DNA of 48,869 nucleotides from a virus. The translations under genes were made by a program, and so were the position numbers. Position 1 is the stretch's first letter. Each line of letters begins with the position of its first letter. Where the stretch lies: positions 1-48,869 of the IMG/VR virus record IMGVR_UViG_3300009009_000018. One strand, written 5' to 3'. The notes under the pieces are model-generated. The model worked only from the letters and a program-made list of their open reading frames with translations. It did no database searches and was not told the DNA's origin. Of the stretch, positions 704-30,442 are shown in pieces.

Positions 704-1231
704 TCATATTGGATTACCTTTATAATCGTAAAAGGCTAACGGAGTAACCGTGTCCTCAGAAAAGAAATCTCCTGGCTCTATTCCTATTGGGAAATCTCCT
801 TCGCTTGTCTCTGAACCCCATCCACCGCCGGAATTAATCTCGACTAGTTCATATCCAGTAAAAAGAAAAATGTTATTCTCTTTAGGATCTACTGTAATGA
901 TTATTGCATCTGTTTTATGCATACCAAGAATACCTGGAGCCACCACATCCGACAAATAAACCATAGGGGTGGCGGGATTGTTTTCGTCACCATGTGCAGA
1001 TCTGGTAATTGCACCAACTTTAGGGGTAAGACCTTTTTTCTTAATACTCGCTAGGTTTTTTTTGTTGGTTACATGATATAGGATTTTAGGTGGATGGTCA
1101 GGTAAGTCTATCCCATCATCACCGTCGTCAGGACTAAACTTACTTGGCTTGAAAGCAGAAGAATCTAGCTTTGCCGCAGAGATCTCGGAAATTATATAAG
1201 CTGCTTTTATTTTTTCTTTTAACTTAAACAT
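704..1231 (-). CDS. ADP-ribosyltransferase-like protein (H-Y-E type) with capsid-targeting-like leader
   Basis: The N-terminus (MFKLKEKIKAAYIISEI) resembles the leader shared by the 5-8 kb island proteins. An acidic spacer (about residues 34-46) separates it from a domain resembling the KptA/DarT (DUF4433) branch of the ADP-ribosyltransferase fold. LYHVTNKKNLASIKKKGL puts His53 in the NAD-binding His position, VYLSD supplies Tyr92, and SEDTVTP supplies a candidate catalytic Glu159. Members of this branch modify DNA, RNA 2'-phosphates or protein. The substrate cannot be told here. AAAGGTG lies 6 nt before the ATG. The gene follows the GT8 gene on the same strand. The leader implies packaging in the virion head and delivery into the host, which is inference. 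The fold call is moderately sure and the activity is unproven. Confidence 0.65.
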   Translation of the reverse strand: MFKLKEKIKAAYIISEISAAKLDSSAFKPSKFSPDDGDDGIDLPDHPPKILYHVTNKKNLASIKKKGLTPKVGAITRSAHGDENNPATPMVYLSDVVAPGILGMHKTDAIIITVDPKENNIFLFTGYELVEINSGGGWGSETSEGDFPIGIEPGDFFSEDTVTPLAFYDYKGNPI

Positions 1232-1267
1232 AGATCACCTTTCGTTTGACTCACCTGTCGATTAACT

Positions 1268-2113
1268 CTATGATTCGATAGTGTTAGGATTGCCGGTCAG
1301 GTTTTCAAAATAGTTCCACATAGCTGTATACGGCATTGTCGTATTCCACGGTTTTCTACTTCCCACAAAATGCAATATTCTTATATCCTTCACTAAAAGA
1401 TCTATATTAAACAAAGGATTGAAACTATTAACACGAGAGAAAGGATGAAATATTCTACGTTCTTTTGTACCAAAGTGGTTAAATTTAATATCAAGTGCTG
1501 TGTGCTTATTATCAGCATAAATATTTAAAACTATTTGATCGTTAAACCCATATTCTGACAGTTTATTGATCGTATCAATATAGTTGTTACTCCTTAATTT
1601 AAATAAATCTAGCACTAGTACGCCTGCGTTAAAGCCATTGGAATGGGGATATATGTTATCTTCTTGATAGAAGTCTTTTAGCCACATACGGACTACATTT
1701 TGTCCTAAACTATTTCTTGCTGCAATGCCAGTAACACCAGTGTCGATATCAGTAAATAATTGATCGATTTTTCCGACAACAAGGAGATCAATATCTAAAT
1801 ATAAGACCCTATTTATAGATGCATCTGTAATGTGATTCACAACATATAGCCGATCCATAGTGCTGACGCTAATGTGTTTTAAACCTTCTTTGTATATAAT
1901 ATTGCTTGTCATAAAGTATGGTTTAATCGCTAGATTAGGAAAATATTCTAGTGCACTCTCTATTGGCTCCAGATCGTCTGGGGAAATATCTCGAACAAAG
2001 GAATGAATAGTGAATAGGAGGTCAGGATTGGACACACTTAACGATTTTAACATTGTAGGGACTAGCGGTATAAAATTTTTATCAAAGCATATTAAAACGT
2101 GTACACTTTTCAT
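1268..2113 (-). CDS. Glycosyltransferase family 8 (LgtC-like)
   Basis: This is a retaining sugar transferase that uses a nucleotide-sugar donor. The GT8 signature is complete: YLDIDLLV with the metal-binding DxD at residues 107-109, the FNAGVLVLDL segment near residue 160, NDQIVLN, and HFVGSRKPW near the C-terminus (usual HxGxxKPW). At 281 residues it matches the length of bacterial LgtC-type lipopolysaccharide galactosyl- or glucosyltransferases. There is no membrane segment, so it is probably cytoplasmic or peripheral. Its start lies inside the 3' end of the pyruvyl-transferase gene (32-bp overlap), so the two are likely translationally coupled. Together they probably modify the host surface glycan after infection, perhaps to block superinfection. 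The acceptor is unknown. Confidence 0.88.
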   Translation of the reverse strand: MKSVHVLICFDKNFIPLVPTMLKSLSVSNPDLLFTIHSFVRDISPDDLEPIESALEYFPNLAIKPYFMTSNIIYKEGLKHISVSTMDRLYVVNHITDASINRVLYLDIDLLVVGKIDQLFTDIDTGVTGIAARNSLGQNVVRMWLKDFYQEDNIYPHSNGFNAGVLVLDLFKLRSNNYIDTINKLSEYGFNDQIVLNIYADNKHTALDIKFNHFGTKERRIFHPFSRVNSFNPLFNIDLLVKDIRILHFVGSRKPWNTTMPYTAMWNYFENLTGNPNTIES

Positions 2114-2969
2114 TAACCCCCCCAGATATATAATTAGTTATTTTACTGGTAAGCGCGTCAATCATAATATTCAGTTTACTTCTATCCGTATTTCCTAGTG
2201 CGATTAACTCTTCTAGAGTAGTCGCTTCCAAAATTTGGTTCCTATTGACCTTTCGCAGTATTGGCTCCCACCCTGTAAATCTTGGATCATCCTGCCGATA
2301 GGGAATGAATATGACTGGTGTGCCATAAGCAAGACATGGAAGGGCAACGTGGAATCTACTGGTTATCACAAGCCTTGAAGATTGATATAAAGATAAAAAG
2401 TCTTTAGCAAGTTCCCTTCTGGACGTGTCACTAAGGGTATTTGGAACACGATGCGTCAGATATTTTATATTAAACTTCTGTTTAAAAAATTCAGGAAGAC
2501 TAACATCTACTGCACAAACGAGATCTTGATTTCTGACAACATCGAGAGATATCTTTAATGTTGTAGTTAAACAGCCCGAAAAATAAGCAGGCACTCCATT
2601 GCTTAATAATAAATCTTGAGTACTAGTGTCTCGGCATCCAACTGGACCATGTTCAATTAACCAGCTTTTTAATCTCCCATCTTTAAATAATAAGTTATGA
2701 CCGTTTGTACCAAATGCAGACTTGTCTGCAAAGTGCATAGAGATAAGCAAAGGTTTTACGTCACTAGTAAGAGGATAAAAACCTTCGGGATTGTGAGTAA
2801 ACCAACCATTCAAAATCAGTTTTGAAATTTTATTATTTTCGTTTAATTCTTCTCGCAAAAAATCCCTATCCAAGTAGGTATCTATCTTTGGAAGCCAACT
2901 ACTCGCCGCCAAAGTCTGAATGTCATCCCCTAAATTTGTAGTATTTGTATATTTTAAAGCTGCTATCAT
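2082..2969 (-). CDS. Polysaccharide pyruvyl-transferase family protein
   Basis: The family (PF04230-like) adds pyruvate ketals, or related groups, to capsule, exopolysaccharide or cell-wall sugars. The N-terminal NLGDDIQTLAA (about residues 12-22) is the typical glycine-rich start. GPVGCRDTSTQDLL and YFSGCLTTTL mark the middle, and SRFHVALPCLAYGTPVI marks the C-terminal ligand-binding half. At 295 residues it is a single-domain member. It overlaps the downstream GT8 gene and is preceded by two strong hairpins (2985-3046) that separate it from the Kelch gene. Phages rarely carry this family. A role in changing host surface sugars, or in decorating a phage glycan, is inference. Confidence 0.8.
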   Translation of the reverse strand: MIAALKYTNTTNLGDDIQTLAASSWLPKIDTYLDRDFLREELNENNKISKLILNGWFTHNPEGFYPLTSDVKPLLISMHFADKSAFGTNGHNLLFKDGRLKSWLIEHGPVGCRDTSTQDLLLSNGVPAYFSGCLTTTLKISLDVVRNQDLVCAVDVSLPEFFKQKFNIKYLTHRVPNTLSDTSRRELAKDFLSLYQSSRLVITSRFHVALPCLAYGTPVIFIPYRQDDPRFTGWEPILRKVNRNQILEATTLEELIALGNTDRSKLNIMIDALTSKITNYISGGVNEKCTRFNML

Positions 2970-4718: not shown

Positions 4719-4803
4719 CTACCGTTATATATATTCTTTTTTGGTAAAAATATTTCTTTGGTTATGGGGCGCGGGAGCGAAATGCTTATGCAGGGACGAA
4801 ACC
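4719..4803 (-). pseudogene. Remnant of a second copy of the R-S-E ADP-ribosyltransferase gene (3' end only)
   Basis: Positions 4719-4764 closely match the last 17 codons of the ADP-ribosyltransferase gene (6433 to about 6485). The segments for KEIF, the Y-Q-K stretch and the terminal I-T-V are recognisable, with small indels that break the frame. Positions 4789-4803 match the inner part of the island's 5' leader repeat (TGCAGGGACGAAACC). The simplest reading is that a full copy with its leader lost nearly all of its coding region by internal deletion. Confidence 0.6.
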
Positions 4804-4833
4804 ACTTGAAGTATTGTTTTCTTTAACAACACT

Positions 4834-5263
4834 CTACTTCCGAATTTTCTTCGCAGAATAATCCCGTACTTTGATGGCATCAAATTGTACATTCAATTCT
4901 TTACCTGTCTTTTTAATACTTTTTACTAGGATATCCTTGCCAACTACCTTAAGGACTAAGTAGCAGTCTTGAACGATTCCCATGCTGCCGTATTTCTTCC
5001 CAGCATGTACCGTCAGTAGAAATGCTGCACGATTTTGGATCTACATTCAGTTTTTTTTTCCTTGAAAATAGGGAAAAACTTATCGGCAATTTTTTGGATT
5101 TGCTCCGCAGTTACGGTGTCTGATAAAACACCTTTAGCAGTCTTGAACGATTCCCATGCTGCCGTATTTCTTCCCAGCATGTCGAATATTCCAACATCGA
5201 CTTGGTACTCGGTATGGCTTCGGCTGTAACATAATGAGCCTGAATTTTTTTCATAAGCGACAT
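4834..5263 (-). pseudogene. Frameshifted leader-bearing effector gene
   Basis: The start at 5263 gives a clear leader (MSLMKKIQAHYVTAEA), preceded by the standard leader repeat and a GGAGA ribosome binding site. The frame then breaks: the start frame stops at 5111 after 50 residues. The coding-like continuation (EYQVDVGIFDMLGRNTAAW, then TAKGVLSDTVTAEQ and IADKFFPIFKE) lies in another frame. A third segment (YLVLKVVGKDILVKSIKK ending at the TAG at 4834) is in frame with neither. A T9 homopolymer (5051-5059) and a 48-bp direct repeat mark likely break points. The original product is unrecognised. Sequencing error at the homopolymer could explain one break but not the repeat. Confidence 0.65.
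4961..5182. repeat. 48-bp direct repeat inside the pseudogene
   Basis: Positions 4961-5008 and 5135-5182 are identical (starting TAGCAGTCTTGAACGATTCC). They lie 174 bp apart inside the frameshifted gene and encode the LGRNTAAWESFKT segment. The duplication probably arose by slippage or unequal recombination and contributed to the loss of the reading frame. Recombination between the copies would delete 174 bp, exactly 58 codons. Confidence 0.9.
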
Positions 5264-5270: not shown

Positions 5271-5340
5271 TCTCCAAATAAGTTAATAATTTCAACAACT
5301 TAATAGCTGAGTGCGTATCATTGCAGAGGGACGAAACCTC
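5271..5340 (-). repeat. Effector-island 5' leader repeat, copy 1
   Basis: On the minus strand this block has GAGGTTTCGTCCCTC, then ACGCACTCAGCTATTAAG, an AT-rich run, and GGAGA shortly before the start at 5263. The same block precedes every gene of the island. GAGG and CCTC can pair around a 7-nt loop. It is the untranslated leader, and perhaps the promoter, of the pseudogene. Confidence 0.85.
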
Positions 5341-5345: not shown

Positions 5346-5435
5346 CTATTTATTTCCCTTCAACAATATCCCACCGCGCTTCATCTTTAGGTAATTTGTC
5401 TTTTCAAGATCACCAACGAAACTTTGTAACCACTA
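5346..5435 (-). other. In-frame open stretch after the amber stop of the 5433 gene
   Basis: After the TAG of the next gene (5433-5435), the same frame stays open for 28 more codons. It reads WLQSFVGDLEKTNYL and so on, with coding-like composition, to another TAG at 5346. It could be a former C-terminus cut off by a nonsense mutation, or a rare read-through tail. It could also be chance. Confidence 0.35.
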
Positions 5436-6005
5436 TTCATCATCATCATCTTCGATTCCCATATATTCCTTTATTTTTTCGATTTCCGCAGCGGTTTTTT
5501 TACCCGCCTTCATATGGCGAGAGGCTTTGTCCAAAAAGTCCACAAAACGCTCACGGTCATTTTCATATTCCATTCTGGATGGCTCTTGGTCACTGGCCCA
5601 CATATGTACAATTTCGGCAACCTCTTCATCTGTCCAGTCCTTTACGTGGTCTAGAAGTCGTCCATAACTATGGTGATAATGAACGCCTGATATAGCCTCC
5701 TGTTTGGTTTTCTTGCAGGGGAAACCAATAACCATCGAGCAATAAATACTATCGCTCGTCTCAGCATTAAGGTTATATTTATAACTCTTGAGATATGGGA
5801 TTACTTGGTCTGTTATGAATTTTTCCGTGCAGTCGGGATGATTGATTATTGTCAGCAGGTTCTTCCCTATTATATCGGGATAATGCTCACTACATTTAAG
5901 AGAATCTTCTAAGTCCCATTTTTTCAAAACCCCACGCACGAATTGTGTATCATCAGCAGCTTCAACCTTGTAGTAATGAGCATGAATCTTACGTAAAAAC
6001 GACAT
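5433..6005 (-). CDS. Leader-bearing island protein of unknown function
   Basis: The first 16 residues (MSFLRKIHAHYYKVEA) are the clearest example of the island leader, ending in the VEA boundary where a prohead protease could cut. The remaining 174 residues match nothing I recognise. Visible features are a cysteine pair region (YCSMVIGFPCKK), a histidine cluster (GVHYHHSYG) and a very acidic C-terminus (EDDDDE). The body is mostly helical with no signal peptide or membrane segment. GGAGAATT lies before the ATG. It is one of five intact tandem genes, each with its own leader repeat. Packaging in the virion is inferred from the leader. Confidence 0.75.
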   Translation of the reverse strand: MSFLRKIHAHYYKVEAADDTQFVRGVLKKWDLEDSLKCSEHYPDIIGKNLLTIINHPDCTEKFITDQVIPYLKSYKYNLNAETSDSIYCSMVIGFPCKKTKQEAISGVHYHHSYGRLLDHVKDWTDEEVAEIVHMWASDQEPSRMEYENDRERFVDFLDKASRHMKAGKKTAAEIEKIKEYMGIEDDDDE

Positions 6006-6010: not shown

Positions 6011-6081
6011 TTCTCCAAATAAATTAATAATTTCAACAACTTAATAGCTGAGTGCGTATCATTCTAGAGGGACGAAACCTC
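6011..6081 (-). repeat. Effector-island 5' leader repeat, copy 2
   Basis: This copy precedes the gene starting at 6005 and is nearly identical to copy 1 from CTCC to GAAACCTC on the plus strand. It keeps the GAGG/CCTC pairing and the ribosome binding site. Confidence 0.85.
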
Positions 6082-6100: not shown

Positions 6101-6364
6101 TCACAGCCATTTTTTCGACTTAAATAATTTAAGTAGGTCGTTGCTAAACGCCTCTTTTTCGCCTTCTGACATGCGGTCTAGCGGTTTATGGGCATTACTC
6201 ATCTCTCTTAGAGCTACGTTTTTCATTTGATTTGCTTCAAATTCTGGAGCCGATTTTATCGCAGATTTGATCTTTGGTAACATATCGAGAGCCTTCTCAT
6301 TAAAATGTCCTTGCCATCCCGAAGTTACTTTGTAGTGGCTTTTGATCTTGGTTAAAAAATTCAT
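6101..6364 (-). CDS. Small leader-bearing island protein of unknown function
   Basis: I use the ATG at 6364 (MNFLTKIKSHYKVTSG) rather than the longer open frame, because GGAG lies 6 nt before it and the product then aligns with the shared leader. The 87-residue product is basic and helical (KALDMLPKIKSAIKSAP, and EKEAFSNDLLKLFKSKKWL at the end). The leader lacks the VEA ending and has VTSG instead. No family is recognised. Size and charge resemble T4 internal proteins, which are small basic proteins injected with the DNA. That comparison rests on general properties only. Confidence 0.7.
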   Translation of the reverse strand: MNFLTKIKSHYKVTSGWQGHFNEKALDMLPKIKSAIKSAPEFEANQMKNVALREMSNAHKPLDRMSEGEKEAFSNDLLKLFKSKKWL

Positions 6365-6369: not shown

Positions 6370-6428
6370 TCTCCAAATAATTAATTTAAACAATTTTATA
6401 GCTGAGTGTGTTGCAGGGACGAAACCTC
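6370..6428 (-). repeat. Effector-island 5' leader repeat, copy 3 (short variant)
   Basis: This is a diverged, shorter copy before the gene starting at 6364. It keeps TAGCTGAGTG and GGGACGAAACCTC but has lost about ten bases between them. The remnant at 4789-4803 resembles this variant (TGCAGGGACG). Confidence 0.8.
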
Positions 6429-6432: not shown

Positions 6433-6906
6433 TTAATCTACCGTTATATAATGTACGCTCTTTTGGTAAAATATTTCTTTGACTATATATCTACCATCGC
6501 CTAGCACAAGGTATTCGGCTTCATCGTTAAATCTACCTTGGGTAATAGGTAGACCACGTCCGCTCAGTGTAATGACAGCTCCTGCTCTAAGCCTGTTGGC
6601 TTTATCAAGTGATTTTCCCTTTGCAAATTTATACGCAACATCTTCATCTTCTGTACAAGAAATAAACCCAGACATTGTGATCGTGTCACCAACTTTTAAA
6701 TGACTAAAGTCACCATTTAGTCCACGATATAACGTCTTATCTACACCATGCTGCTTGATACCGAGCTTTAATATCTCTTTTTCTTTTGGTGTTAACCCTT
6801 CATGATCTTCCGTATAGCTATAAATAGCTCTGAGCAAATCATCATCTGAGATGATCTGATTAGAAATTACTTTGTATTTCGCTTGAATGTCTTTGAGAAA
6901 CGACAT
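6433..6906 (-). CDS. ADP-ribosyltransferase (R-S-E class) with capsid-targeting-like leader
   Basis: The enzyme would transfer ADP-ribose from NAD to a host protein, by family usually to arginine. The signature is complete and in order: LYRGL with Arg61, MSGFISCTED as the Ser-x-Ser-type strand (Ser79/Ser83), and DEAEYLV with the ExE pair Glu129 and Glu131. The leader (MSFLKDIQAKYKVIS) occupies residues 1-15 and a short helical region links it to the catalytic core. At 157 residues it is much smaller than T4 Alt, which is also packed in the head and has the same R-S-E triad. I infer injection with the DNA and early modification of a host target. A decayed copy of its 3' end lies at 4719. Confidence 0.85.
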   Translation of the reverse strand: MSFLKDIQAKYKVISNQIISDDDLLRAIYSYTEDHEGLTPKEKEILKLGIKQHGVDKTLYRGLNGDFSHLKVGDTITMSGFISCTEDEDVAYKFAKGKSLDKANRLRAGAVITLSGRGLPITQGRFNDEAEYLVLGDGRYIVKEIFYQKSVHYITVD

Positions 6907-6910: not shown

Positions 6911-6972
6911 TTCTCCAATAATTTCAATAACTTAGTAGCTTAGTGTGTATCATTTCAGAGGGACGAAACCTC
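6911..6972 (-). repeat. Effector-island 5' leader repeat, copy 4
   Basis: This copy precedes the ADP-ribosyltransferase gene (start 6906). It is slightly shortened in the AT-rich part and keeps GAGGGACGAAACCTC. Confidence 0.85.
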
Positions 6973-6979: not shown

Positions 6980-7765
6980 TTATGACCTACCTAATTTATC
7001 CAACAATGCTTTACTTTTCTGCACCGCAGTTTTCAAATCCGAATCCCTAGCACTGTCTATCCTCCCTTCAAAATGAGGATTAGGATTGGGCTGACCATCA
7101 GTAAGAAAATGATAACGATATTCCGGCTTAAACACATGTTCATCATCACTAATATAATAGGATAACCTTAGAGATTTTACCTGTTTTCCTAGTTTAATAG
7201 GCGCGAATTCAAAATATGTATTTTTAGAGTCTTTAGTTACTTTGATTATAGTAAAGCCCAAGTTAGCAAATTCAGACTTAATTTCATCCACACTACCACC
7301 GCCAGTATGCTTTTTTTCTGGATCTACAAATTTTTCAACATTTTTGATTTCGCTGTATTTTTTGTAAGTGATTGGTTTTGGGTAAAAGCGGAGCTGCTTA
7401 TGCCAATCCATAAAATAGTGTGTGAACTCTATAGAGCGAGATCTCCACGATGCTCCCCCTGAGCTTTTAGTTATACCACGATCCCAGATCATTTTTCCAT
7501 TATCCATATAGAAGACAAAAAATCGCTTTGGACCTGAAAAATAATCACCTAAACTGTAGACAAGCATTCCTTGTATTTCGGATGGATCTTTAGTTATGGT
7601 GCTAACATTGTTACTGCGCTCGTCATAGTCTATTTTAACATTATCTTTTCCTTGTTTTAGGATAGCCATCAGTGATGCTGGAATGGCGTCATCCCCAAAA
7701 TAATAAGATTTCTGTGTGGCCTCAATTTTGATATAACGAGCGTTAATTTGAGAAAGAAACGACAT
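6980..7765 (-). CDS. Leader-bearing island protein of unknown function (261 aa)
   Basis: It begins with the leader MSFLSQINARYIKIEA, with the IEA boundary. The mature part appears to have two beta-rich halves. One holds MLVYSLGDYFSGPKRFFVF, KMIWDRGITK and WRSRSIEF. The other runs from about residue 150 and includes GFTIIKVTKDSKNTYFEF and YRYHFLTDGQPNPNP. A Gly-rich hinge (HTGGGSVDEI) separates them. No catalytic motif is recognised. The final helix is basic (KSKALLDKLGRS). Ribosome binding site and leader repeat are present, as for its neighbours. It may be a virion-packaged effector. The function is unknown. Confidence 0.72.
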   Translation of the reverse strand: MSFLSQINARYIKIEATQKSYYFGDDAIPASLMAILKQGKDNVKIDYDERSNNVSTITKDPSEIQGMLVYSLGDYFSGPKRFFVFYMDNGKMIWDRGITKSSGGASWRSRSIEFTHYFMDWHKQLRFYPKPITYKKYSEIKNVEKFVDPEKKHTGGGSVDEIKSEFANLGFTIIKVTKDSKNTYFEFAPIKLGKQVKSLRLSYYISDDEHVFKPEYRYHFLTDGQPNPNPHFEGRIDSARDSDLKTAVQKSKALLDKLGRS

Positions 7766-7773: not shown

Positions 7774-7842
7774 CTCCAAATAATTTAATAATTGTAACAA
7801 CTTAATAGCTGAGTGCGTATCCTTCTAGAGGAACGAAACCTC
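7774..7842 (-). repeat. Effector-island 5' leader repeat, copy 5
   Basis: This copy precedes the gene starting at 7765. It has GAGGAACGAAACCTC instead of GAGGGACGAAACCTC. The change falls in the loop and keeps the GAGG/CCTC pairing. Confidence 0.85.
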
Positions 7843-7857: not shown

Positions 7858-8325
7858 TTAATCATCCATCGAGCCTTCCATATTCGTTATGGCATCGTAA
7901 GGTAAGCTAATAATGAATACTTGAATGTCTTTTTTGTTCTGATCTTTTCGAGTGAGCAGCCGATGATTACCGTCTAGAACGACCATACTAGCACCGACTT
8001 TAGCCACGATAATCGGGTTATCGATTTGGTTTTTTTTAACTCGCCTACCGTGATCATAGTATGAATATTTTTTAGTTTCGTCCATAGGTACAGTGGTTAC
8101 TTTTCCCTTTTTAATCGCAGCATTCCAAGTACGAATAACTTCATCCAGAAACTCAGAATTGGGATCGCCATTCTCGTCTAAACCTACAGCAAATAAAACT
8201 ACATTCAATGCATCTTTAAGGTCGTCTTTAGCGAGGCTTGAATGAGACAGGACAGCGTCTTTTTCGGTAAGCAACTTCTTACTAACCGCTTGGTACTTGG
8301 CATATACTTTGCTAAGGAACGACAT
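7858..8325 (-). CDS. ParB/sulfiredoxin-like domain protein with capsid-targeting-like leader
   Basis: I chose the ATG at 8325 (MSFLSKVYAKYQAVS) over the one four codons upstream, because the GGAG ribosome binding site lies inside that extension. After the leader and a helical region comes NPIIVAKV, then VVLDGNHRLLTRK with the DGNHR motif at residues 118-122, then DIQVFIISLP. This is the arrangement of the ParB/sulfiredoxin fold, whose members bind nucleotides (CTP or ATP) and act in DNA partition, as nucleases, or in phosphotransfer. The 155-residue length fits one such domain. I infer a packaged effector that acts on DNA or nucleotides. No antidote gene is visible. Confidence 0.7.
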   Translation of the reverse strand: MSFLSKVYAKYQAVSKKLLTEKDAVLSHSSLAKDDLKDALNVVLFAVGLDENGDPNSEFLDEVIRTWNAAIKKGKVTTVPMDETKKYSYYDHGRRVKKNQIDNPIIVAKVGASMVVLDGNHRLLTRKDQNKKDIQVFIISLPYDAITNMEGSMDD

Positions 8326-8330: not shown

Positions 8331-8382
8331 TCTCCAATAATTTAAACTACTTAGTAGCTGAGTGCGTACAGGAGTAAACCCC
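8331..8382 (-). repeat. Effector-island 5' leader repeat, copy 6 (diverged)
   Basis: This is the most distal and most diverged copy. It keeps TTAGTAGCTGAGTGCGTA and then GGAGTAAACCCC. Its upstream half overlaps the last codons of the actin-like gene. GGGG and CTCC can still pair if a G-U pair is allowed. Confidence 0.7.
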
Positions 8383-9352
8383 GTGCTACGGCACCTAAAG
8401 GATCTTTCGCCATTCGCACTTCTTTAATCTTAAACGGGAGCGGGTTCTTAGCTTGAAATCTCTTTAGCTCCTCTTCCCATAGCTCTTTAAAACCTTTGAG
8501 AGAGGCTGTTCCACCAGAAAGCACGATAGGAATAGGAGCAGGGAAATCTAACTGGCTCTTCATTTTAACCCACTCTTTCATGAGGGTTTGTAGCTCATAA
8601 CGGATGAGTGCTTTGTAGTGGTAATATAACGCCTGACCGATCTCATCATCTATGGCGGACGCATTTAATAGATCAAATTGCGAATCTTCTTTAACCTTAA
8701 GAACTTGAGCAATCGGAGCGCCGATGGCAGCAGAAGTCATGGCATCTACCCAATCTCCACTTCTAGAGATAGAAAAGTCAAGCGTCCCTACAAGCTTATA
8801 TGATGCACAGATATTGATCTGCCCCCCTCCGTGAGAGATAGCAATACCAGAGTGGTCGTCTTCAGCACACTCAGCGTATATTATAGCCAATGCTTCGTTT
8901 ACTGGTTCTGAATCATAACCAAAGGTGTCTAATAACTGTGAGAAGAAACCCGCGTGCCACACAGTATTAGCTTTTGGATTATCTACGGGAACAGCAGGAA
9001 CAGAAAAGCAGCACTTCTCTCCTTCCACTTCAGGCTCCCCTACAAGCGCTTTTACGAGAGCACTAATTACATCCCGCCCTTCTTTTTCTGCTGGGTTTAA
9101 AATACCTGACGCCATCGGACGTCGAACTTCACGGTTAAGGATGCGTGCAATTGAAATGGCATCATCACCAACTATATACGCACTATCTTTGATGTGAACG
9201 GCATTGAGAGATCCTGCAGCAAGGCGCTGCTTCTGTTCGTCGGTAATATCGATAAAGGCATTGCGTAGGCGTTTAACTTCCATTTGTCCGCTTTTTTTAT
9301 CCATTTTTGCAGCAACTAAATTACTAGTCCCCACATCAAGTGCTGTTGCCAT
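8351..9352 (-). CDS. Actin-like ATPase (ParM/MreB superfamily)
   Basis: The five-part actin/hexokinase nucleotide site is visible. Phosphate-1 is ALDVGTSNLV (Asp6), the connecting region is NEALAI (Glu153), phosphate-2 is ISHGGGQIN (172-180), and the adenosine motif is IVLSGGTASLKGF (277-288). At 333 residues it fits phage and plasmid actins that form filaments for DNA segregation or for positioning of replicating phage DNA. I chose the ATG at 9352 because AGGAAGG precedes it and the family begins right at the first strand. An in-frame start at 9415 would add 21 basic residues. A TAAGATTATA motif lies 43 bp upstream of 9352. The exact subfamily is not clear. The gene is immediately upstream of the effector island. 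Confidence 0.85.
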   Translation of the reverse strand: MATALDVGTSNLVAAKMDKKSGQMEVKRLRNAFIDITDEQKQRLAAGSLNAVHIKDSAYIVGDDAISIARILNREVRRPMASGILNPAEKEGRDVISALVKALVGEPEVEGEKCCFSVPAVPVDNPKANTVWHAGFFSQLLDTFGYDSEPVNEALAIIYAECAEDDHSGIAISHGGGQINICASYKLVGTLDFSISRSGDWVDAMTSAAIGAPIAQVLKVKEDSQFDLLNASAIDDEIGQALYYHYKALIRYELQTLMKEWVKMKSQLDFPAPIPIVLSGGTASLKGFKELWEEELKRFQAKNPLPFKIKEVRMAKDPLGAVARGLLLYALSY

Positions 9353-9394
9353 ATTTGATTTCCTTCCTAGCAGCTTATTTTTCCATTTGCGATA

Positions 9395-9404
9395 TATAAT
9401 CTTA
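9395..9404 (-). promoter_or_regulatory. Candidate promoter element (TAAGATTATA)
   Basis: The motif lies on the minus strand 43 bp before the preferred start of the actin-like gene, overlapping the stop of the gene before it. This placement supports the shorter start at 9352 and a separate transcript for the actin and effector genes. Confidence 0.4.
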
Positions 9405-9713
9405 GGCTTTATCATTTTTTCTTGTTTTTAACTTAGCAATTCCTTCTTCATCAAGAGACGACTTGGTCGTAGACACAGATAATAAACTAGCCTTACTACT
9501 TTTGATTCCAGTTGGCATAAAAGGCAAAGTATCAAAATTTGTGTCGATTTCTTCTACTGCAGGCACAGATAGAGAAGGCTGATACGAATAAGCATAAGGA
9601 GAATCTGATAGAATATCCTCTTTCTGTTTTGAAAGAAGTCTCTCTAATAGCGAGTTTTGTTCCTGCACCAACTCTTTATGCGATTTCCTAATAAAAAACT
9701 TTTTACTGGCCAT
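9402..9713 (-). CDS. Small KKFFI-type protein, coiled-coil N-terminus
   Basis: This 103-residue protein starts MASKKFFIRKSHKEL, closely like MAKKFFIKSSSD of the gene at 11309. A short coiled coil (QNSLLERLLSKQ) follows, then a low-complexity Ser/Pro/acidic tail. No family is recognised. The shared start suggests a second kind of localisation or assembly tag in this phage. AAGAAAGGA lies before the ATG. A perfect palindrome (9732-9749) sits 19 bp before the start and may control the gene. Confidence 0.65.
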   Translation of the reverse strand: MASKKFFIRKSHKELVQEQNSLLERLLSKQKEDILSDSPYAYSYQPSLSVPAVEEIDTNFDTLPFMPTGIKSSKASLLSVSTTKSSLDEEGIAKLKTRKNDKA

Positions 9714-12114: not shown

Positions 12115-12498
12115 ATGGGATATCTTAAGAAAGTTACAGCAATGGCACGTGGCACACTCGTGATTGACGAGTGTTTAGAACCATTGGCTCCATACATAGA
12201 ACAAAAAAACATACATGTTATTGTGCCAGAGAAGAAAATGTCTGATGATAAAATAATTAAAACACTTCTCGCAAATCGAATCATTGTTACGCACAATGTA
12301 GATGATTTTAAAGACAAAGCATCTTCTTTCGACTATGGGATAATATCCACGAAAAATGTTAACATCCAACAATTAGACGTATTAGCAGACATGATCTCTA
12401 AAGCAATTATTGCTCATAAGTTGTGGTCTTATCGCCATGGTTTTTTGCTAACATTAAAACAAGACGGCAAGCACAAATTAGAAGACTTGACAGACTAA
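12115..12498 (+). CDS. PIN-like nuclease domain protein (DUF5615/Mut7-C-like)
   Basis: The 127-residue protein has the spacing of acidic residues seen in DUF5615 PIN-like ribonucleases: VIDECLE (Asp18, Glu19), SDDKIIKTLLANR (43-55) and IIVTHNVDDF (56-65, the ITxDxDF position). The C-terminus is basic and diverged. Family members are often toxin-like RNases paired with a DUF433 antitoxin, but no partner gene is adjacent. It is the only plus-strand gene between 1 and 19.8 kb and ends 4 bp from a convergent gene, so it looks like an inserted single gene. GGGGG precedes the start. The RNase activity is inferred. Confidence 0.65.
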   Translation: MGYLKKVTAMARGTLVIDECLEPLAPYIEQKNIHVIVPEKKMSDDKIIKTLLANRIIVTHNVDDFKDKASSFDYGIISTKNVNIQQLDVLADMISKAIIAHKLWSYRHGFLLTLKQDGKHKLEDLTD

Positions 12499-16906: not shown

Positions 16907-17110
16907 TTATTTTTGCTTAGCTCGGTTAAGCATAGATTTAAGTGCCGCACGTGCTTCATCAATCGCCATAAGTTCATCAGAGCTACCAAGGAGTTCTAAT
17001 TCGTGCCCATACTTTTTGAACGAGTTAAAAAACTCAGTTATTTTAGTATGTGCTTCGAATACGCGTTTTGACATATCGCTTGCTGCTTCGATTTTGCTCA
17101 GAAAGGACAT
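16907..17110 (-). CDS. Small leader-bearing helical protein
   Basis: This is a 67-residue, entirely helical protein. It begins MSFLSKIEAASD, the island leader up to the Ala position, with AGGTAGG before the ATG. The rest (HTKITEFFNSFKKYG, DEARAALKSMLNRAKQK) resembles a short scaffold or core helix bundle. It sits far from the effector island, among virion-type genes, which suggests the leader serves head proteins generally and not only effectors. The function is unknown. Confidence 0.65.
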   Translation of the reverse strand: MSFLSKIEAASDMSKRVFEAHTKITEFFNSFKKYGHELELLGSSDELMAIDEARAALKSMLNRAKQK

Positions 17111-21493: not shown

Positions 21494-21516
21494 ATTATTT
21501 AGTTTCGGTGGTAGAT

Positions 21517-22260
21517 ATGACCTTTATTTCTAAGTTAAATTCTATTTTGACTGACCCTAAAAAGTCAGTCTACTACCGAAAAACAAATAATGAAGGTGGA
21601 CCATCCGCACCTTTAAATATACAGGATGCTCGTGATTGGGAAATATCGTGGGAAAAAGGACGTGCCGTCCTATTAAATACACCTCGCGTGAAAAAACCAC
21701 ATGGGGAACTTATGCCAGAAACACCAAAAGATAGAGGCGATATAACTTGGGATCGCGGTGGTTCAAATACAGGAACACTTCCGACAGATCCTAACGCTCC
21801 CTTAGATAAATTAATGTTTAAAAATAGGGATCGTAATTTAACTGAGGGAACGAGGTTGACCATGTCTTATGTAGCACGACTTGCTTCTGTACTTGCCGCA
21901 CCATTATCATTTAATGATGTACTTAAAATAATCAAAACTCTGTATCCAGATTTAAAGATGAAATTTCCAAAACCTCCCACTTTTGTGTGGAATCCTAAAA
22001 AAGAGGGTGCAGAAGTGGATGAGGGTGTAGATGATAGTATTAAGCTAAACCCACAAGAGATAAAAGATAAATTAAAGGTTAAACTTCCGCAGTTAAAATG
22101 GACATTAAGAATGTCCGATGGTGTAGAAGAGGCGGAATTAGGCTTCACGGATGACTCTACAGCTCTTTTTGAAATAGGAGCAAAAGCAAATCATCTAACT
22201 CTCACCTTTTATGAGACTAAGACACCACAGACTCTTACATATGACGATTCTGAGGCTTAA
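21517..22260 (+). CDS. Leader-bearing head-type protein, possibly a fusion of two leader modules
   Basis: I use the ATG at 21517 (MTFISKLNSILTDP), since GGTGG precedes it. The open frame also allows a GTG three codons earlier. The leader resembles that of the 28547 gene (MTISYLDRLTKILVDAP). At residue 116 a second leader-like segment appears, MSYVARLASVLAAPLS. Its ATG at 21862 has GAGG 7 nt before it, so translation may also start there. The rest is basic and Lys/Pro-rich (DLKMKFPKPPTFVW) and then ends in beta strands. No family is recognised. A packaged core protein or processed precursor is inferred. Confidence 0.6.
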   Translation: MTFISKLNSILTDPKKSVYYRKTNNEGGPSAPLNIQDARDWEISWEKGRAVLLNTPRVKKPHGELMPETPKDRGDITWDRGGSNTGTLPTDPNAPLDKLMFKNRDRNLTEGTRLTMSYVARLASVLAAPLSFNDVLKIIKTLYPDLKMKFPKPPTFVWNPKKEGAEVDEGVDDSIKLNPQEIKDKLKVKLPQLKWTLRMSDGVEEAELGFTDDSTALFEIGAKANHLTLTFYETKTPQTLTYDDSEA

Positions 22261-25880: not shown

Positions 25881-25883
25881 TCG

Positions 25884-26258
25884 ATGCAGTTTTTAGAACG
25901 TGTGGAGAATTCTTATTTTGTGGTAGAGGCTGGAGTCACTCCGGCAAGGAAACCATCAAAATTGACTTCCCACAAAAGTAATAAAAAAGATGTGCTACCT
26001 AAAGCCTCTGAGGGAGCAGAAAAGGTATCGTTTTCTGAATTAACGAATACACGTAAACTGACTTCGTTCATTGAGAAAGAGTTACAGTTGACAGATCCTT
26101 TTAATTTTACAAATGAGACTTGGACAAGATTTACTAAGAAGGTTGCACCTAAATTGTTAACTGCACTTCTTATAGATATGAACATTGTTCCAAGAGCTAG
26201 AAAAGCAGAATTTGCTCGTTACTTAGAGCGGAGATTACGGACGTTGGCAAAAAATTAA
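25884..26258 (+). CDS. Leader-bearing small head protein, candidate scaffold or core component
   Basis: The leader is the clearest outside the island (MQFLERVENSYFVVEAG) and keeps the VEA boundary. The 124-residue product then has a basic, Ser-rich stretch and a helical basic end (RKAEFARYLERRLRTL). It starts 4 bp after the zinc gene and ends 20 bp before portal. Small core proteins removed by the prohead protease lie in this position in T4-like phages, so a scaffold or internal protein is likely. This is inference from position and leader. Confidence 0.65.
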   Translation: MQFLERVENSYFVVEAGVTPARKPSKLTSHKSNKKDVLPKASEGAEKVSFSELTNTRKLTSFIEKELQLTDPFNFTNETWTRFTKKVAPKLLTALLIDMNIVPRARKAEFARYLERRLRTLAKN

Positions 26259-26277: not shown

Positions 26278-28221
26278 ATGGGATACTTTAATTTTAAACG
26301 ACCAGCACTTGGCTCTTACTTAGATAGGAGAAACCCTCCGTATATGCACGATAAGAATAAAACCGTTGGTTCTTGGAAAGGGCACCGAGAAAGTATTACT
26401 GCCAGCGGATTTAATCACGATAGGTTTAATTCTCAAAAAGCGAGAATTGAAGAGGGATCTATCATTGAGGACTGGATTCCCCGTCAGCCCACGATGCTCC
26501 ATCTTCTTATGCGAAGAATATACCTGCGTGACAGCATTGCAGGTTCGGTCGTGGATATCTATAGCACAATGCCATGGGGAAAGTTATACGAACTTATAGG
26601 TATAGATGATCCAAAAATATCTCAAATGTATCAAGATATGATAGAGTCGTTAGGAATATGGGGGGAATTGCCTATTATCTCTCGCGAGTTTCTTATTATA
26701 GGTAGAATGATTGCTTCTCTCCCGTTTAATGAAACGACAGGACTGTGGGATGCCATGGTTCCTATCGATCCTGATCAAGCAAAAATACAGCCAGTTCCTT
26801 TTTCAGGAGTAAAGCCTCTTATTGATGTTCTTTCTTCTCCCGCTTGGCGGGAATTTGCTCGTAGCACAGATCCTCGGATAGTCGAGATGAAAGAAAACAT
26901 GAATAAAGATCTGTTAGCTACATTTCAAAATTCGTCTGGGTATTTTCCGCTGGAGCCAATGAATACGTTGTTTTTAGCTCGACGAGTTAACCAGTATGAT
27001 CATATCGGCACATCCTTTTTTACTCGGATTTTACCTGCGTGGGCTTATGAAACTGCACTGTGGGATGCCTCTTTGACTGGAGTAAGAAGAAGAAATCGTT
27101 CAATACTATTAGTGACTGCAGGATTAGACGAGACGTGGGAGCCGAACGATGCTGAGTTGGCTTCTTTGACGCAAATATTTATGCAGGCGGATGAAGATCC
27201 TACTGGAGCTGTTATCTCAGTTAGAAATGGTGTAGATGTTAGTGAAGTAAGAGATCCAACGTCTATCTGGGGCATTTCTCAAGAATTTGAATTTTTAAGT
27301 ACACTTAAAATGCGAGCATTGGGCGTATCTGAGGCTTATCTATCAGGTGATGCCAATGTATCAAACATGGAAACAGCAAGAACCTCGTTAGGTAAAGCGG
27401 TGGCCTCTTTTAGAGACAACATGCTTCATGAGATCTTTGCAAAACAGCTTTTTCCTGCTTTTGCTCGTATCCATAATTTTCAAAAAAGAACACAAGCAGA
27501 ACTTCGTAATAACATAAGAATCGAGTCTGGACGGGTAGCGCGTGAGCAAGAATATGACAACAGGATGTGGCAAAACGAAAGACGCACAAAATGGGGCTTT
27601 CCTATGATCACTGCCAAGCAGGCACTTGATATCCCAATCGGGTCTTTGATTATGCCTCGTCTTATTACAGAAGACACGCTCCGTCCCGAACAAGACACAG
27701 CCTATTTGGAGATGCTGGACAAGTTAAAAGAAAATGGTGTGCCAGTTCCGCTTCGCATATGGGCATCTGCGGCTGGTTATGATCTCGATAAAGCAATGGC
27801 TATGATGGAAGAAGATATCATTCTTAAAAAGCGACTAAACCAACTTTCTATGGGTGATTTAGCAGGTGGAGGTGGAGGTGAAGATTTACTTAGTGGTGGA
27901 GAAGAAGGCGGAAATAAGTCGGCAACGGACCTTTTTGAGGGTGGCGAAGAAGGTGCTTCGAGCAATCAACAAGGCAAGTCGGCTACGGTGCCGCCAAAAT
28001 GGGGATTTACCGGTGTGGGGGCAACAGTAGGAACAAGCTCTCCGCTACCGTACCAAAAGAAGCTAGGAGTATCGCACGATGTTAAAATGGTCGATGCTAC
28101 GTTAAATGCTTTTCAAGAGGGACAGGATCCTTACGTGAAAATGGTTTCTAAAATTGCACCTAATTTGCTCGCAGATTTACGTGTACCTAGAGGTAGGGAA
28201 TTGATGCCTTACACAGATTAA
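26278..28221 (+). CDS. Portal protein
   Basis: The portal forms the dodecameric ring through which DNA enters and leaves the head. The 647-residue length fits. Typical sequence includes the early LRDSIAGSVVDIYSTMPWG, a central SLTGVRRRNRSILLV stretch, and FEFLSTLKMRALGVSEAYLS with GDANVSNMETART, the tunnel-loop and stem region of many portals. A Gly/acidic-rich tail (about residues 530-575) follows. The gene order, terminase then two small head genes then portal, supports the call. I use the ATG at 26278, since an out-of-frame ATG at 26271 gives nothing sensible. Confidence 0.88.
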   Translation: MGYFNFKRPALGSYLDRRNPPYMHDKNKTVGSWKGHRESITASGFNHDRFNSQKARIEEGSIIEDWIPRQPTMLHLLMRRIYLRDSIAGSVVDIYSTMPWGKLYELIGIDDPKISQMYQDMIESLGIWGELPIISREFLIIGRMIASLPFNETTGLWDAMVPIDPDQAKIQPVPFSGVKPLIDVLSSPAWREFARSTDPRIVEMKENMNKDLLATFQNSSGYFPLEPMNTLFLARRVNQYDHIGTSFFTRILPAWAYETALWDASLTGVRRRNRSILLVTAGLDETWEPNDAELASLTQIFMQADEDPTGAVISVRNGVDVSEVRDPTSIWGISQEFEFLSTLKMRALGVSEAYLSGDANVSNMETARTSLGKAVASFRDNMLHEIFAKQLFPAFARIHNFQKRTQAELRNNIRIESGRVAREQEYDNRMWQNERRTKWGFPMITAKQALDIPIGSLIMPRLITEDTLRPEQDTAYLEMLDKLKENGVPVPLRIWASAAGYDLDKAMAMMEEDIILKKRLNQLSMGDLAGGGGGEDLLSGGEEGGNKSATDLFEGGEEGASSNQQGKSATVPPKWGFTGVGATVGTSSPLPYQKKLGVSHDVKMVDATLNAFQEGQDPYVKMVSKIAPNLLADLRVPRGRELMPYTD

Positions 28222-28243
28222 ACAAATAAGGGAGGGCTTCTAT

Positions 28244-28546
28244 ATGATGATGGAACCTAAGACTCTTTTTATAGAGAAACGTATTAGTGATGCCGTTTCG
28301 GTGATTCCTGGAGTGGGAATCCTCACGGTAGACGTACCGTTCGTCCCTGACTATATCAAGGTACGCTATCTCGATACATGTAGGAAAAGCACACTTGACG
28401 AACTTACTTACGATCTTCTTTTTACGGGAGATCCTTCTTCTCCATATCAGCTTGTTATGTCATGGTCGGTAGCAAGCGGAAGGCGACGCAGGTTTAAGTA
28501 CATTGTTGCAAAACTGTCTTCGTTTCACAATGGAGCACACAACTAA
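28244..28546 (+). CDS. Small beta protein, paralogue of the gene at 21188
   Basis: The 100-residue protein carries the same pattern as the gene at 21188: ILTVDVPFVPDYIKVRYL, a middle strand pair, then RRRRFKYIVAKLSS. GGAGGG precedes three consecutive ATG codons, any of which may serve. It ends one base from the leader-bearing gene at 28547, repeating the two-gene arrangement at 21188-22260. It is probably a virion surface or head-associated protein. Confidence 0.6.
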   Translation: MMMEPKTLFIEKRISDAVSVIPGVGILTVDVPFVPDYIKVRYLDTCRKSTLDELTYDLLFTGDPSSPYQLVMSWSVASGRRRRFKYIVAKLSSFHNGAHN

Positions 28547-30442
28547 ATGACTATTTCTTATCTTGATAGGCTTACTAAAATATTAGTGGACGCTCCTTCA
28601 CTAAGTAAAGAGGAGTGCTTCTTTTCTTTGAGTAGTGCCGATAAGACAAGAACATCCACCATAAAACATCGGACAGAAGCAAAGAAAAAGAAAAAAAAGA
28701 AACCTGTTCCTGATAAGAAGGACGTATTAGTTAAGATACGTGCGATCGAAGCTCCTACCCTTCTTTTAATAAACACGAATGTAACGTCTACAGATCAAAG
28801 TGACGCAGATATCGTTAAAGAGGCGGGCAGGGAAAATTACAAGAAATTTCGTAAGGATTCGGATGTCAGAGCCATTTTACCATCCTGCGTGAATTTATCG
28901 TCTTTGGACGGTATTCAATGCTGGCTATGTCCAAATAGTAAGTTAAGTGACTTAACCACAGCGGCTTTTCGCTTCGGGTTGGATCACTCTACTTCTTCTT
29001 TGCCCCAAGATCTTTTTTCCGTAGCTAACCCTTTTGCTGCTATTAAGATCGGGCTAAAAGGGATGGAAAAGGTAGGTAAAAGTAAGATAAAAGTTGGATT
29101 GTCTTCTGCTTGGGAGCCTTTTTATACTGCAGTAACAGAAGAGAAAAAGCAGCAAGAAGAGATACCAGAGGAAAAAGAATCTCCAAAGGAAGATACACCT
29201 GACGAGAAAAAAGAAGATGATATTGATCTTACCGATTTGACTACGGATGAGAAAGAGACGGACGAAGATATTCCACTGGAAGAAGAACCAGATGTAGAGG
29301 TAGAGGATGCTCCCGCGTTGAACGTAGGAAAGTATAGATCGTTAAAAGATCCTTACATATTTATATTAGATCCACGTAAAAAAAGACTGGATTATCTTTC
29401 GTTTCTTGGTCCGGATGAAGAAGGTACCAAACAGAAAAAAGCATCTAACGTGCTACCTAAAGCACTTAAGATGTACGTAGCAAGGCATCCTAAATTAAAA
29501 GCACCGGAAGGTGAGCCAGTCATTGTTTATTTTTTAAGTGCTAAAGAGGCGGCAGATATTCAAACCGAATTAAAAAGGGAAAGCCCACCTCAATATCTTC
29601 TAGCTCCTTTTGATAAGGTGCTTTTCGATAAAGACGAACCTTTTGATGGTCTTGTCGTTAATAATGTTCCTGTAGACGAAACTCTAGTAGCAGAACTTAA
29701 CAAACAGTGGATGGAAGCTACGTCACGAGGTTCTGGTACTCCTATTCCTGCGGTACAAGCAAGTGCAAGTATACCGTTGGATTATTTTAGACTTTTGAAT
29801 AAAAAACAGCGTCATATTCAACTCCATATAGGGAATCGTCCTGAAGGATCAGGAACTAAGAATACGATTTACATTCTTGCCTCGGAAGCCGAAGCAGAGG
29901 CATTCGTAAAAAGGATGCGCTCGTTTAAAATGCCCTCGTTGTTTTATGAACGATTCTCTGCCAATAGTGATATAGACGCTGGATTTAAAGCAACTGAGCC
30001 CCGTAAACTACTACCGTCTAATGTTCTTATCTTAAAAGCAGCCGAGCGCTTTGATCCAAAGGCCCCTGCTTTGATCACAGAACACAATGTAGATCTACTT
30101 CCGCAGCAGGATGCCGGAAATGCTTCTAAATTATTAAAGCAGCTCGCTCAGTTGCCTTCGGGTTCTGAGGAAAAAATAGAGGCGATTAAAACTGAACTAA
30201 CTAAATACGCAACACAGTTAGATCTCCTTCACTCATTTGCTCAAAAGATACTTGGAAATAAAACTAAAAAGACAGGTGCGTTTATCAAAAGCAGCACCAT
30301 TGGTACTCACGTAGCACAATTTAACGCAAACATGACGATTTGTTTTTTGTGGGGGTCTTTAACTACGCATGTGACCATAGATCCAAAAGAGGTGATGAGG
30401 AAGTTACCTTTTGTTAAACAAGTAATCACTGGTTACCTGTAA
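28547..30442 (+). CDS. Leader-bearing acidic head-type protein
   Basis: The 631-residue protein begins MTISYLDRLTKILVDAPSLS, a leader of the 21517 type. A Lys-rich run near residue 45-55 and a long Glu/Asp/Lys low-complexity region (about residues 195-260, with EEKESPKEDTPDEKKEDD) follow. Beta and helical segments then extend to a short hydrophobic end (MTICFLWGSLTTHVTI). Highly charged low-complexity regions are common in phage scaffolds and internal core proteins. No enzyme motif is seen. The start codon directly abuts the stop of the gene before it (TAAATG). Confidence 0.65.
   Translation: MTISYLDRLTKILVDAPSLSKEECFFSLSSADKTRTSTIKHRTEAKKKKKKKPVPDKKDVLVKIRAIEAPTLLLINTNVTSTDQSDADIVKEAGRENYKKFRKDSDVRAILPSCVNLSSLDGIQCWLCPNSKLSDLTTAAFRFGLDHSTSSLPQDLFSVANPFAAIKIGLKGMEKVGKSKIKVGLSSAWEPFYTAVTEEKKQQEEIPEEKESPKEDTPDEKKEDDIDLTDLTTDEKETDEDIPLEEEPDVEVEDAPALNVGKYRSLKDPYIFILDPRKKRLDYLSFLGPDEEGTKQKKASNVLPKALKMYVARHPKLKAPEGEPVIVYFLSAKEAADIQTELKRESPPQYLLAPFDKVLFDKDEPFDGLVVNNVPVDETLVAELNKQWMEATSRGSGTPIPAVQASASIPLDYFRLLNKKQRHIQLHIGNRPEGSGTKNTIYILASEAEAEAFVKRMRSFKMPSLFYERFSANSDIDAGFKATEPRKLLPSNVLILKAAERFDPKAPALITEHNVDLLPQQDAGNASKLLKQLAQLPSGSEEKIEAIKTELTKYATQLDLLHSFAQKILGNKTKKTGAFIKSSTIGTHVAQFNANMTICFLWGSLTTHVTIDPKEVMRKLPFVKQVITGYL

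Follow-up and report, generated by a model that had tools for sequence, protein, structure and literature searches.

A short leader shared by unrelated proteins of a myophage genome fragment, and phage-specific motifs in its relatives as a possible packaging tag

Leader-bearing genes of the window

The 48,869 bases analysed here, referred to as the window, are a fragment of a myophage genome (virus record G000, IMGVR_UViG_3300009009_000018) in which a short N-terminal leader, e.g. MSFLSKVYAKY, recurs on proteins whose bodies are unrelated. The same arrangement is seen in at least three relatives, G001, HRDY3 and G003: each of the four phages has its own motif, 8-10 residues long, on proteins that are otherwise unrelated. 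Six of the window leaders, starting at 5263, 6005, 6364, 6906, 7765 and 8325, each stand in a copy of a repeated DNA cassette, a fact overlooked in an earlier note on this sequence.

A leader profile was built from the six cassette leaders and scored against 2359 control N-termini from eight other phage genomes. With each cassette leader left out in turn, no control matched, and none matched the leader at 17110 when the six-cassette profile was used. From the control scores (Table 1), seven starts are secure, one of them (5263) belonging to a broken gene; 1231 is probable; 21517 and 25884 are undecided, their numbers of control matches being about what chance would give for roughly 50 open reading frames (ORFs); and 28547 is wrong. 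The earlier note had assigned the leader to at least ten proteins. All eleven starts that it named, the broken gene included, and described by the consensus M-S/T-F-L-x-K-I-x-A-x-Y, are present in the DNA at the coordinates given, but they cannot be treated as equals, since 28547 fails the control scoring. The shared motif is genuine on the seven secure starts and probable at 1231, and is at chance level at 21517 and 25884; what is left of the set is thus seven secure members, a probable one and a small number of possible ones. Among the last is a start absent from the earlier list, at 12115, which is a possible addition to the set; its score is weak, and it was chosen in two unsupervised motif runs and passed over in a third.

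Unsupervised motif search of the window gave a log-likelihood ratio of 132.9 against 113.8 +/- 2.6 in 20 residue shuffles, and a start-anchored search gave 90.1 against 75.6 +/- 2.5 in 12 column-preserving shuffles. No internal or C-terminal copy of the leader stands out in the window, where 11 sites in total compare with a shuffled mean of 6.5 and maximum of 11.

Table 1. Leader-bearing genes, cassette elements and the adjoining actin-like gene of the window (fractions are control N-termini matching the leader profile; aa, amino acids; nt, nucleotides)
Feature	Coordinates	Strand	Evidence
Leader gene 1, MSFLSKVYAKY with ~135-aa ParB-like body	7858..8325	-	0/2359; phrog_17560 1.8e-7
Leader gene 2, MSFLSQINARYIKIEA	6980..7765	-	0/2359
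Leader gene 3, MSFLKDIQAKYKVIS, body weakly like ART domain of Alt	6433..6906	-	0/2359
Leader gene 4, MNFLTKIKSHYKVTS	6101..6364	-	0/2359
Leader gene 5, MSFLRKIHAHYYKVEA	5433..6005	-	0/2359
Leader-gene remnant, MSLMKKIQAHYVTAEA, broken body, beside 48-nt perfect direct repeat	5110..5263 (low end approximate)	-	0/2359; D10, D3/D4
67-aa protein, leader MSFLSKIEAAS	16907..17110	-	0/2359
Probable leader MFKLKEKIKAAY on KptA/ART-like body	704..1231	-	3/2359
Possible leader MGYLKKVTA on DUF5615-like domain	12115..12498	+	31/2359; unsupervised picks
Possible leader MQFLERVENSYFVVEA, 124-aa protein between terminase and portal	25884..26258	+	31/2359, not significant alone
Possible leader MTFISKLNS, ATG at 21517	21508..22260	+	28/2359, not significant alone
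Start named in the earlier note, leader rejected	28547..30442	+	379/2359
5' element, copy before 5263 (GAGGTTTCGTCCCTC ... CGCACTCAGCTATTAAGTTGTT)	5294..5340	-	block search; shuffles
5' element, copy before 6005	6035..6081	-	non-coding, repeat and block search
5' element, copy before 6364	6389..6428	-	non-coding, repeat and block search
5' element, copy before 6906	6931..6972	-	non-coding, repeat and block search
5' element, copy before 7765	7796..7842	-	non-coding, repeat and block search
Block copy before 8325, overlapping 3' end of upstream gene	8345..8366	-	alignment, block search
Decayed extra first-block copy GTGGTTTCGTCCCTG, downstream of 5263 remnant	4791..4805	-	repeats D9, D18
Volactin-family actin-like gene, 3' end repeated in cassettes	8351..9415	-	PF25216 Volactin 6.1e-67

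The bodies behind the leader differ, and most are matched weakly or not at all. The 8325 body, besides its phrog_17560 match, has weak ParB matches (0.011 and 0.016), and from about residue 20 onward it aligns at 40% identity with an internal stretch (residues 645-778) of a 1645-aa G001 protein whose two ends carry no tag; a search of genome contigs with the 8325 product gave no useful result. The 6906 body matches phrog_832 RNA polymerase ADP-ribosylase weakly (E 0.003) and the 7765 body only phrog_17781 (weakly, 0.016). Neither body has a tblastn match in phages, and their structure models (predicted local distance difference test scores of 45 and 38, respectively) are too poor for use. For 6005 there is only a weak match of residues 2-40 to phrog_12713 (0.027), with no relative in viral contigs; for 6364 profile searches returned no family. 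The body at 1231 matches phrog_5470 (9e-4) and PF01885 (0.0035), both weakly, and the 12115 protein has no Pfam match. PADLOC, run on six proteins, gave no useful result. Judged by these matches, the recognisable bodies (ParB-like, weak ART, weak KptA/ART) are of kinds seen in phage polyvalent proteins.

The DNA cassette

A repeated non-coding block, GAGGTTTCGTCCCTC ... CGCACTCAGCTATTAAGTTGTT, precedes six of the seven secure leaders, at 5263, 6005, 6364, 6906, 7765 and 8325. Pairwise identity across the cassette leaders is 0.55, 0.82 and 0.34 at codon positions 1, 2 and 3, respectively, while an 18-nt part of the block stands at 0.89 and codons 17-31 after the leader at 0.29. As silent positions are scrambled, the duplications are old; as second positions and the block are kept although third positions are scrambled, selection appears to act on the peptide as well as on the 5' block. 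The leader at 17110 has no cassette and is absent from the best upstream pairs listed.

Directly upstream of the array of tagged genes lies a phage-encoded volactin-family actin gene. The second block at 8325 overlaps the 3' end of this gene (..RGLLLYALSY*), and it is therefore likely that the remaining copies arose by duplications starting inside it, the volactin gene being the probable source of the 5' block. The first block was not found at 8325 within 3 mismatches. The 8325 copy, in which the repeat ahead of the leader gene coincides with the end of the adjoining actin-like gene, is possibly the nearest to the ancestral cassette. The second block had no match in 100 shuffles. RNA folding of five cassette copies gave none better than shuffles, a promoter scan of the cassette was at chance level, and a terminator scan found 6 candidates against 3.5 +/- 1.8, none of them at the repeated block. 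Searched as a pattern in viral contigs, the cassette gave no useful result.

Decayed cassette copies occupy 4740-5263, with a 48-nt perfect direct repeat at 4961-5008 and 5135-5182. Within this region 4740-4765 resembles the 3' end of the 6906 gene, and 4791-4805 is a lone first block. The decayed copies reflect repeated duplication and loss in the array.

Tags in related phages

The only close relative turned up was G001 (IMGVR_UViG_3300043449_002710; 223,260 bases), matching the portal, sheath and tube of the window at 38%, 38% and 48%, respectively. Alignment of the sheath again returned G001 only, and the portal as a single query in viral contigs gave no useful result. Phages of Pseudomonas putida KT2440 belong to the same portal group. 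A PF03420 search of G001 gave no useful result, and it recovered none of its controls. The recurring motif of G001 is KYPTLxKVLA, and it stands at N-terminal, C-terminal or internal sites. Among 284 ORFs, its strict form lies within the first 20 residues in 9 (shuffle mean 0.01, maximum 1 of 300) and within 20 residues of the C-terminus in 3 (mean 0.00, maximum 1). With a score threshold of 12 the G001 profile yields 27 sites, 16 of which had served to train it, whereas shuffles average 1.05 (maximum 4 of 20). Tagged genes of G001 share no upstream DNA, and the motif is therefore one of the peptide. Identity of upstream DNA between tagged genes, taken for the best pair, is 0.97 in the window compared with 0.57 in G001, 0.53 in HRDY3 and 0.60 in G003.

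The SAM lyase of G001 (PF23780, 3.5e-9) carries the motif at its C-terminus; in a homologue from an Alishewanella phage the end that aligns with it is without the motif. For a tagged G001 protein of 149 aa, phage proteins among the best 15 of 32 records match the body and not the tag. The homologue of 12115 in G001 (match 3.8e-7, DUF5615 below its cut-off) has NYPALNQVLA at residue 61 and the shared domain from residue 78; in the window protein MGYLKKVTA stands just ahead of the shared domain, which begins at residue 14. The aligner placed the window MGYLKKV opposite the G001 N-terminus, MSYSKKL, rather than opposite NYPALNQVLA, and the equivalence in position of MGYLKKVTA and NYPALNQVLA is our own reading. 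If it holds, it would tie the tags of the window and G001 together. A search of G001 with the 28547 product returned no match.

Two long proteins of G001 lack terminal tags. The 1645-aa protein (16323-21260, -), analysed without its N-terminal quarter, has GNAT and exonuclease domains. The second, of 2451 aa (23504-30859, -), has NUDIX, with GNAT and Acb1 below cut-off, and one internal motif site. The joint presence of NUDIX, GNAT and Acb1 in the latter suggests that one phage may fuse what another tags singly.

In HRDY3 the tag is MEMMLALA and in G003 it is MKLxVSLA. Nine ORFs in each fit the Met-initial pattern, six of the nine at the called start and the remainder within 24 residues (HRDY3) and 47 residues (G003) of it. 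Shuffle means are 0.005 and 0.01 (200 shuffles) and neither pattern occurs in the 8 other genomes tested, although both patterns were composed after the motif was seen, so that cross-genome profiles are the less biased check. Reporting only genomes more than 2 above the shuffled mean, over 100 shuffles, a profile made from G003 alone finds 6 sites in HRDY3 against 1.05 (maximum 3), four of the six being HRDY3 tag genes, 7 in G002 against 0.61 (maximum 3), and 4 in G004 against 0.48 (maximum 3). The HRDY3 profile gives a small excess in PaBG, 3 against 0.37 (maximum 2).

The unsupervised start-anchored search with column-preserving shuffles covered 14 genomes. A z score of at least 4.5 was reached in five of them: the window, G001, HRDY3 (10.5), G003 (5.4) and G010 (5.8). 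The G010 motif, IRIYLDGT, lies on three adjacent genes, which are possibly paralogues. The best motif in T4 was KTYQEFIA/KTFKEFIK, its known capsid-targeting sequence (CTS), which indicates that the search looks at the right kind of signal. ORFs were called by simple scripts in two versions, the first of which missed the capsid gene in GC-rich genomes; with the second the PaBG capsid gene was found and the check for the HRDY3 capsid came back empty. The motif searches were run on sets from which proteins with like bodies had been removed, which reduced, e.g., the window from 50 to 49 and G001 from 284 to 264.

Other recurring starts were seen in the wider group. G013 was considered as a carrier of the window tag and rejected, as two ORFs reach a score of 6 against a shuffled mean of 1.27 and maximum of 6; its two nearby ORFs at 117989 (MSYLNTINKKY, score 11.8) and 120860 (MNFIQRVKETY, a topoisomerase, 5.2) are window-like, not above chance. 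In PaBG the listed virion protein gp83 (54998-55960) starts MLIKINLLEAVAAK and gp219 (176296-176721) starts MAAIKINLAEAANRD; the two starts are possibly a PaBG tag. A common start, similar to IxIxADxSFEAVAA, is found on the small proteins PaBG gp220, G008 173490 and 174183, and G010 130377-132619; with its F-E-A it would resemble a cleavable leader. Outside G010, the training genome, this start is not above all shuffles.

Proteins that carry the tags

Tagged proteins of G003 include an Acb1 anti-CBASS protein (8.9e-18), a PcfJ protein (1.1e-13), an NAD ligase (4.6e-19) and KMPT-N below cut-off. Those of G001 include two PcfJ proteins (3e-15 and 1.4e-12) in addition to the SAM lyase; PcfJ is presumably a polyvalent-type domain and is counted as such here. 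G002 has a NUDIX protein (2.5e-11), a topoisomerase IB (1.9e-16) and a weak GNAT; G004 has DarA_C (1.4e-8) and DUF5754. The tagged set of HRDY3 includes a weak GNAT, a protein of the tyrosine-recombinase/topoisomerase type (PF00589, 2e-7) and a protein related to G001 21257 (2e-14), which matches no Pfam family and looks ART-like. Several other tagged proteins in the relatives had no match in family searches.

Homologous proteins allow the tags to be compared directly. PcfJ of G001 and PcfJ of G003 are homologous after the N-terminal tag, and each fits the motif of its own phage. Topoisomerase IB has an SLSA-/SxAxA-like start in 8 of 10 genomes (PaBG, G010, G008, G006, G002, G004, G003 and HRDY3) and no tag-like start in G005 and RHEph12; when eight more records were compared, a similar start was present in five and absent from two, and the remaining one differs.

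Other features of the window

Two proteins have intein-like inserts with LAGLIDADG_3: one of 980 aa (12503-15445, -; PF14528 1.6e-18, Intein_splicing 4.2e-9), the other being the large subunit of terminase (22285-25545, +; PF14528 1.2e-11). The small proteins at 9402-9713 (-) and 11309-11530 (-) have another shared start, MASKKFFIRKS and MAKKFFIKSS. A 12-base tandem repeat at 1-120 encodes a Thr-Pro tail at the contig start, where the assembly probably broke. The regions 1268-2969 (-), 9778-10443 (-), 3054-4625 (-) and 47661-48869 (+) hold a Glycosyltransferase 8, a pyruvyl transferase, a polysaccharide deacetylase, a kelch-repeat protein and a second, putatively kelch-like ORF at the contig end.

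Discussion

The recurrence of the leader and of its counterparts in relatives may best be explained by a lineage-specific packaging tag that brings accessory enzymes into the particle, like the capsid-targeting sequences of T4 and P1, an explanation held with moderate confidence. The earlier note had proposed a tag of this kind on varied cargo; that part is strengthened by the tags found in relatives, whereas its cleavage rule and its number of carriers are not sustained. The tag would be recognised by a single phage-encoded partner, for which the core or the scaffold of the head under assembly is the likeliest candidate. By position and composition, the predicted partner is the highly charged protein encoded beside the capsid genes (G001 138631-140703); PaBG gp82 has a comparable position, with no similarity to it by BLAST. 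Small accessory enzymes would thereby be loaded into the particle, would enter the next cell with the DNA, and there could act against first-line host defences. As the tags are alike within a phage and different between phages, even on homologous PcfJ, one co-evolving receptor per phage is the simplest account, and all tags of one phage would change together with that receptor, putatively the prohead core. In the window six copies of the tag have spread as a DNA cassette of non-coding 5' block plus tag, with the peptide apparently kept by selection.

The prohead is suggested as the destination by the kinds of cargo, by the head maturation protease of the group, by processing in PaBG and by tagged genes near the protease gene. 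The protease is encoded in G001 (3.3e-42) and in HRDY3 (1.9e-95, phrog_18299). Tagged genes in G001 lie at 188969-190868 and 193541, around the protease at 192702, and in HRDY3 the tagged gene at 226324 sits between the protease and the major capsid protein (MCP) gene. Some PaBG virion proteins are processed, according to section 3.2 of the PaBG study (PMC7412058).

Several observations weigh against a packaging tag. On the side of the motifs, residue shuffles give HRDY3 a z score of 4.6 and G003 one of 0.6, which leaves G003 weak or at chance; the HRDY3 profile fails to pick out G003 in the cross-genome test, and the window profile rises above all shuffles in no other genome tested. In the start-anchored search PaBG (z 2.8) and G013 (z 2.1) beat their shuffles only narrowly, T4 (z 2.2) falls just below its best shuffle, and G002, G004, G005, G006, G008 and RHEph12, with z scores of 1.0 or less, do not beat theirs. 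On the side of the particle, no homologue of the HRDY3 protease is present among the ORFs of the window, which is a fragment, and no capsid gene was recognised in it. Virion proteomes are not known to us for G001, HRDY3, G003 or the phage of the window, and a literature search on HRDY3 found no paper. The Acb1-like gp228, the topoisomerase gp84 and gp86 are not among the 14 listed virion bands of PaBG, although these were Coomassie bands and low-copy cargo could be missed. Homologues of the ligase and the NUDIX protein in PaBG, G008 and G010, and the HRDY3 ligase, are untagged. Finally, some phages have the tag on topoisomerase and on DNA ligase, which an address to DNA or to a replication site would fit as well.

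This last point leads to the main rival, in which the tag addresses proteins not to the particle but to another site in the infected cell, e.g. a replication site, the injected DNA or a phage polymerase. The tagged DNA ligase of G003 and topoisomerase IB of G002, with its HRDY3 homologue, suit such an address, as does the placement of the G001 motif at either terminus or internally, which is common among docking motifs. Most recognised tagged bodies are however of counter-defence or polyvalent type (Acb1, SAM lyase, DarA_C, PcfJ, NUDIX, weak GNAT, ART), some tagged genes adjoin the head maturation protease gene, and P1 DarA is listed as a virion head protein in a table of the P1 study (PMC9024508). 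An address to another site is considered unlikely, while being the most serious competitor.

The earlier note had further proposed that the leader is cut as a T4-type propeptide, i.e. that it targets the prohead core and is removed by the head protease, after the Glu of a terminal V/I-E-A and by a rule specific to the phage. EA does follow the leader at 5263, 6005 and 7765, and EA occurs within residues 5-20 in 6 of 48 window ORFs compared with 219 of 3170 (6.9%) elsewhere. The MCP of G001 has KVEA ahead of its conserved part, and the protease encoded by this relative makes cleavage possible in the window phage. Half of the cassette leaders (6364, 6906 and 8325) nevertheless lack EA, and the three copies that have it show the most alike upstream DNA (0.90-0.97), i.e. 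they are close duplicates and not independent. Of the 18 tags counted in HRDY3 and G003 only one is followed by xE[AGS] at a distance of up to 12 residues, and the C-terminal and internal sites of G001 do not fit a propeptide. Cutting by the prohead protease therefore does not stand as a rule, and the propeptide explanation is improbable; if the head maturation protease does remove the tag, this would be optional and is not supported as a general part of the system.

That the leader arises only because a mobile regulatory cassette on its 5' side reaches into the coding region, as a counterpart of the promoter-stem-loop cassettes of T4-type phages, is highly improbable, for while six copies share the conserved block, which at 8325 is the volactin 3' end, the codon-position pattern speaks against the cassette alone as the cause, 17110 and the relatives have leader or tags without cassettes, and neither folding nor promoter scan departs from chance.

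If the packaging tag is real, tagged ORFs of unknown function become candidate virion-delivered effectors, the pool being the 27 motif sites of G001 (about one by chance) and the nine ORFs each of HRDY3 and G003. Capsid targeting would then extend beyond T4 and P1 and could do without an N-terminal propeptide that is cut off, and the tags would offer short, transferable signals by which proteins can be loaded into the heads of jumbo phages. More tentatively, and with confidence somewhat short of even, a jumbo-phage clade may be proposed to use a lineage-specific, co-evolving address code, an N-terminal, C-terminal or linker motif that is not a propeptide, which loads a dozen or more counter-defence enzymes and recruits cargo by gain of the tag, supplied in the window as a ready-made DNA cassette that joins the 5' element to the tag. 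Under such a code a search for tags would reveal hitherto unknown anti-defence genes by their address and not by homology. No description of multi-protein tags in this group was found in the open-licence literature searched.

Comparison with known systems

Four known systems can be set beside the tags. The polyvalent proteins of Iyer et al. 2017 are alike in content, with ART, ParB, NUDIX, GNAT and SNF2 helicase domains and likely packaging, as far as passages of that work describe (PMC5512222), and the 8325 body sits within the 1645-aa protein of G001. They are unlike in build, as domains that are joined there in one long chain are here on separate short tagged proteins; secure window proteins are 67-261 aa, none with more than one kind of domain, and a ParB-like multidomain protein is found only in G001. 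In the giant phage SPN3US, gp53 and gp54 are two diverged head proteins with identical N-termini of 15 residues, likened to T4 CTSs; according to passages of that study (PMC5694885) these are two paralogues only, and its authors infer cleavage within the shared N-terminus.

DarB of P1 is an injected antirestriction protein with an N-terminal signal, and its residues 1-30 suffice to bring a reporter to the capsid; a tagged protein of G004 has DarA_C. The P1 signal is described for one protein of 250 kDa (PMC9024508, in part), where the present phages have many small proteins with one motif.

The working model is provided by the CTSs of T4 (passages of PMC5694885 and PMC9391042), whose internal proteins are packaged by means of a motif, IPIII being likely anti-defence (PMC9391042, in part). 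The present tags differ from those of T4 Alt and IPI-IPIII in sequence, in their greater number of carriers, in having no constant cleavage site and, in G001, in their C-terminal and internal placement. They show no likeness to T4 MKTYQEFIAEA, and the patterns and profiles used here miss the T4 leaders; in the start-anchored search the window, G001, HRDY3 and G003 all give a stronger signal than T4 does. What is shared with T4 is a short N-terminal sequence on small, differing proteins, in T4 a cargo that acts early in the new cell, and such an arrangement, one short N-terminal motif on unrelated proteins, is found in the window, HRDY3 and G003.

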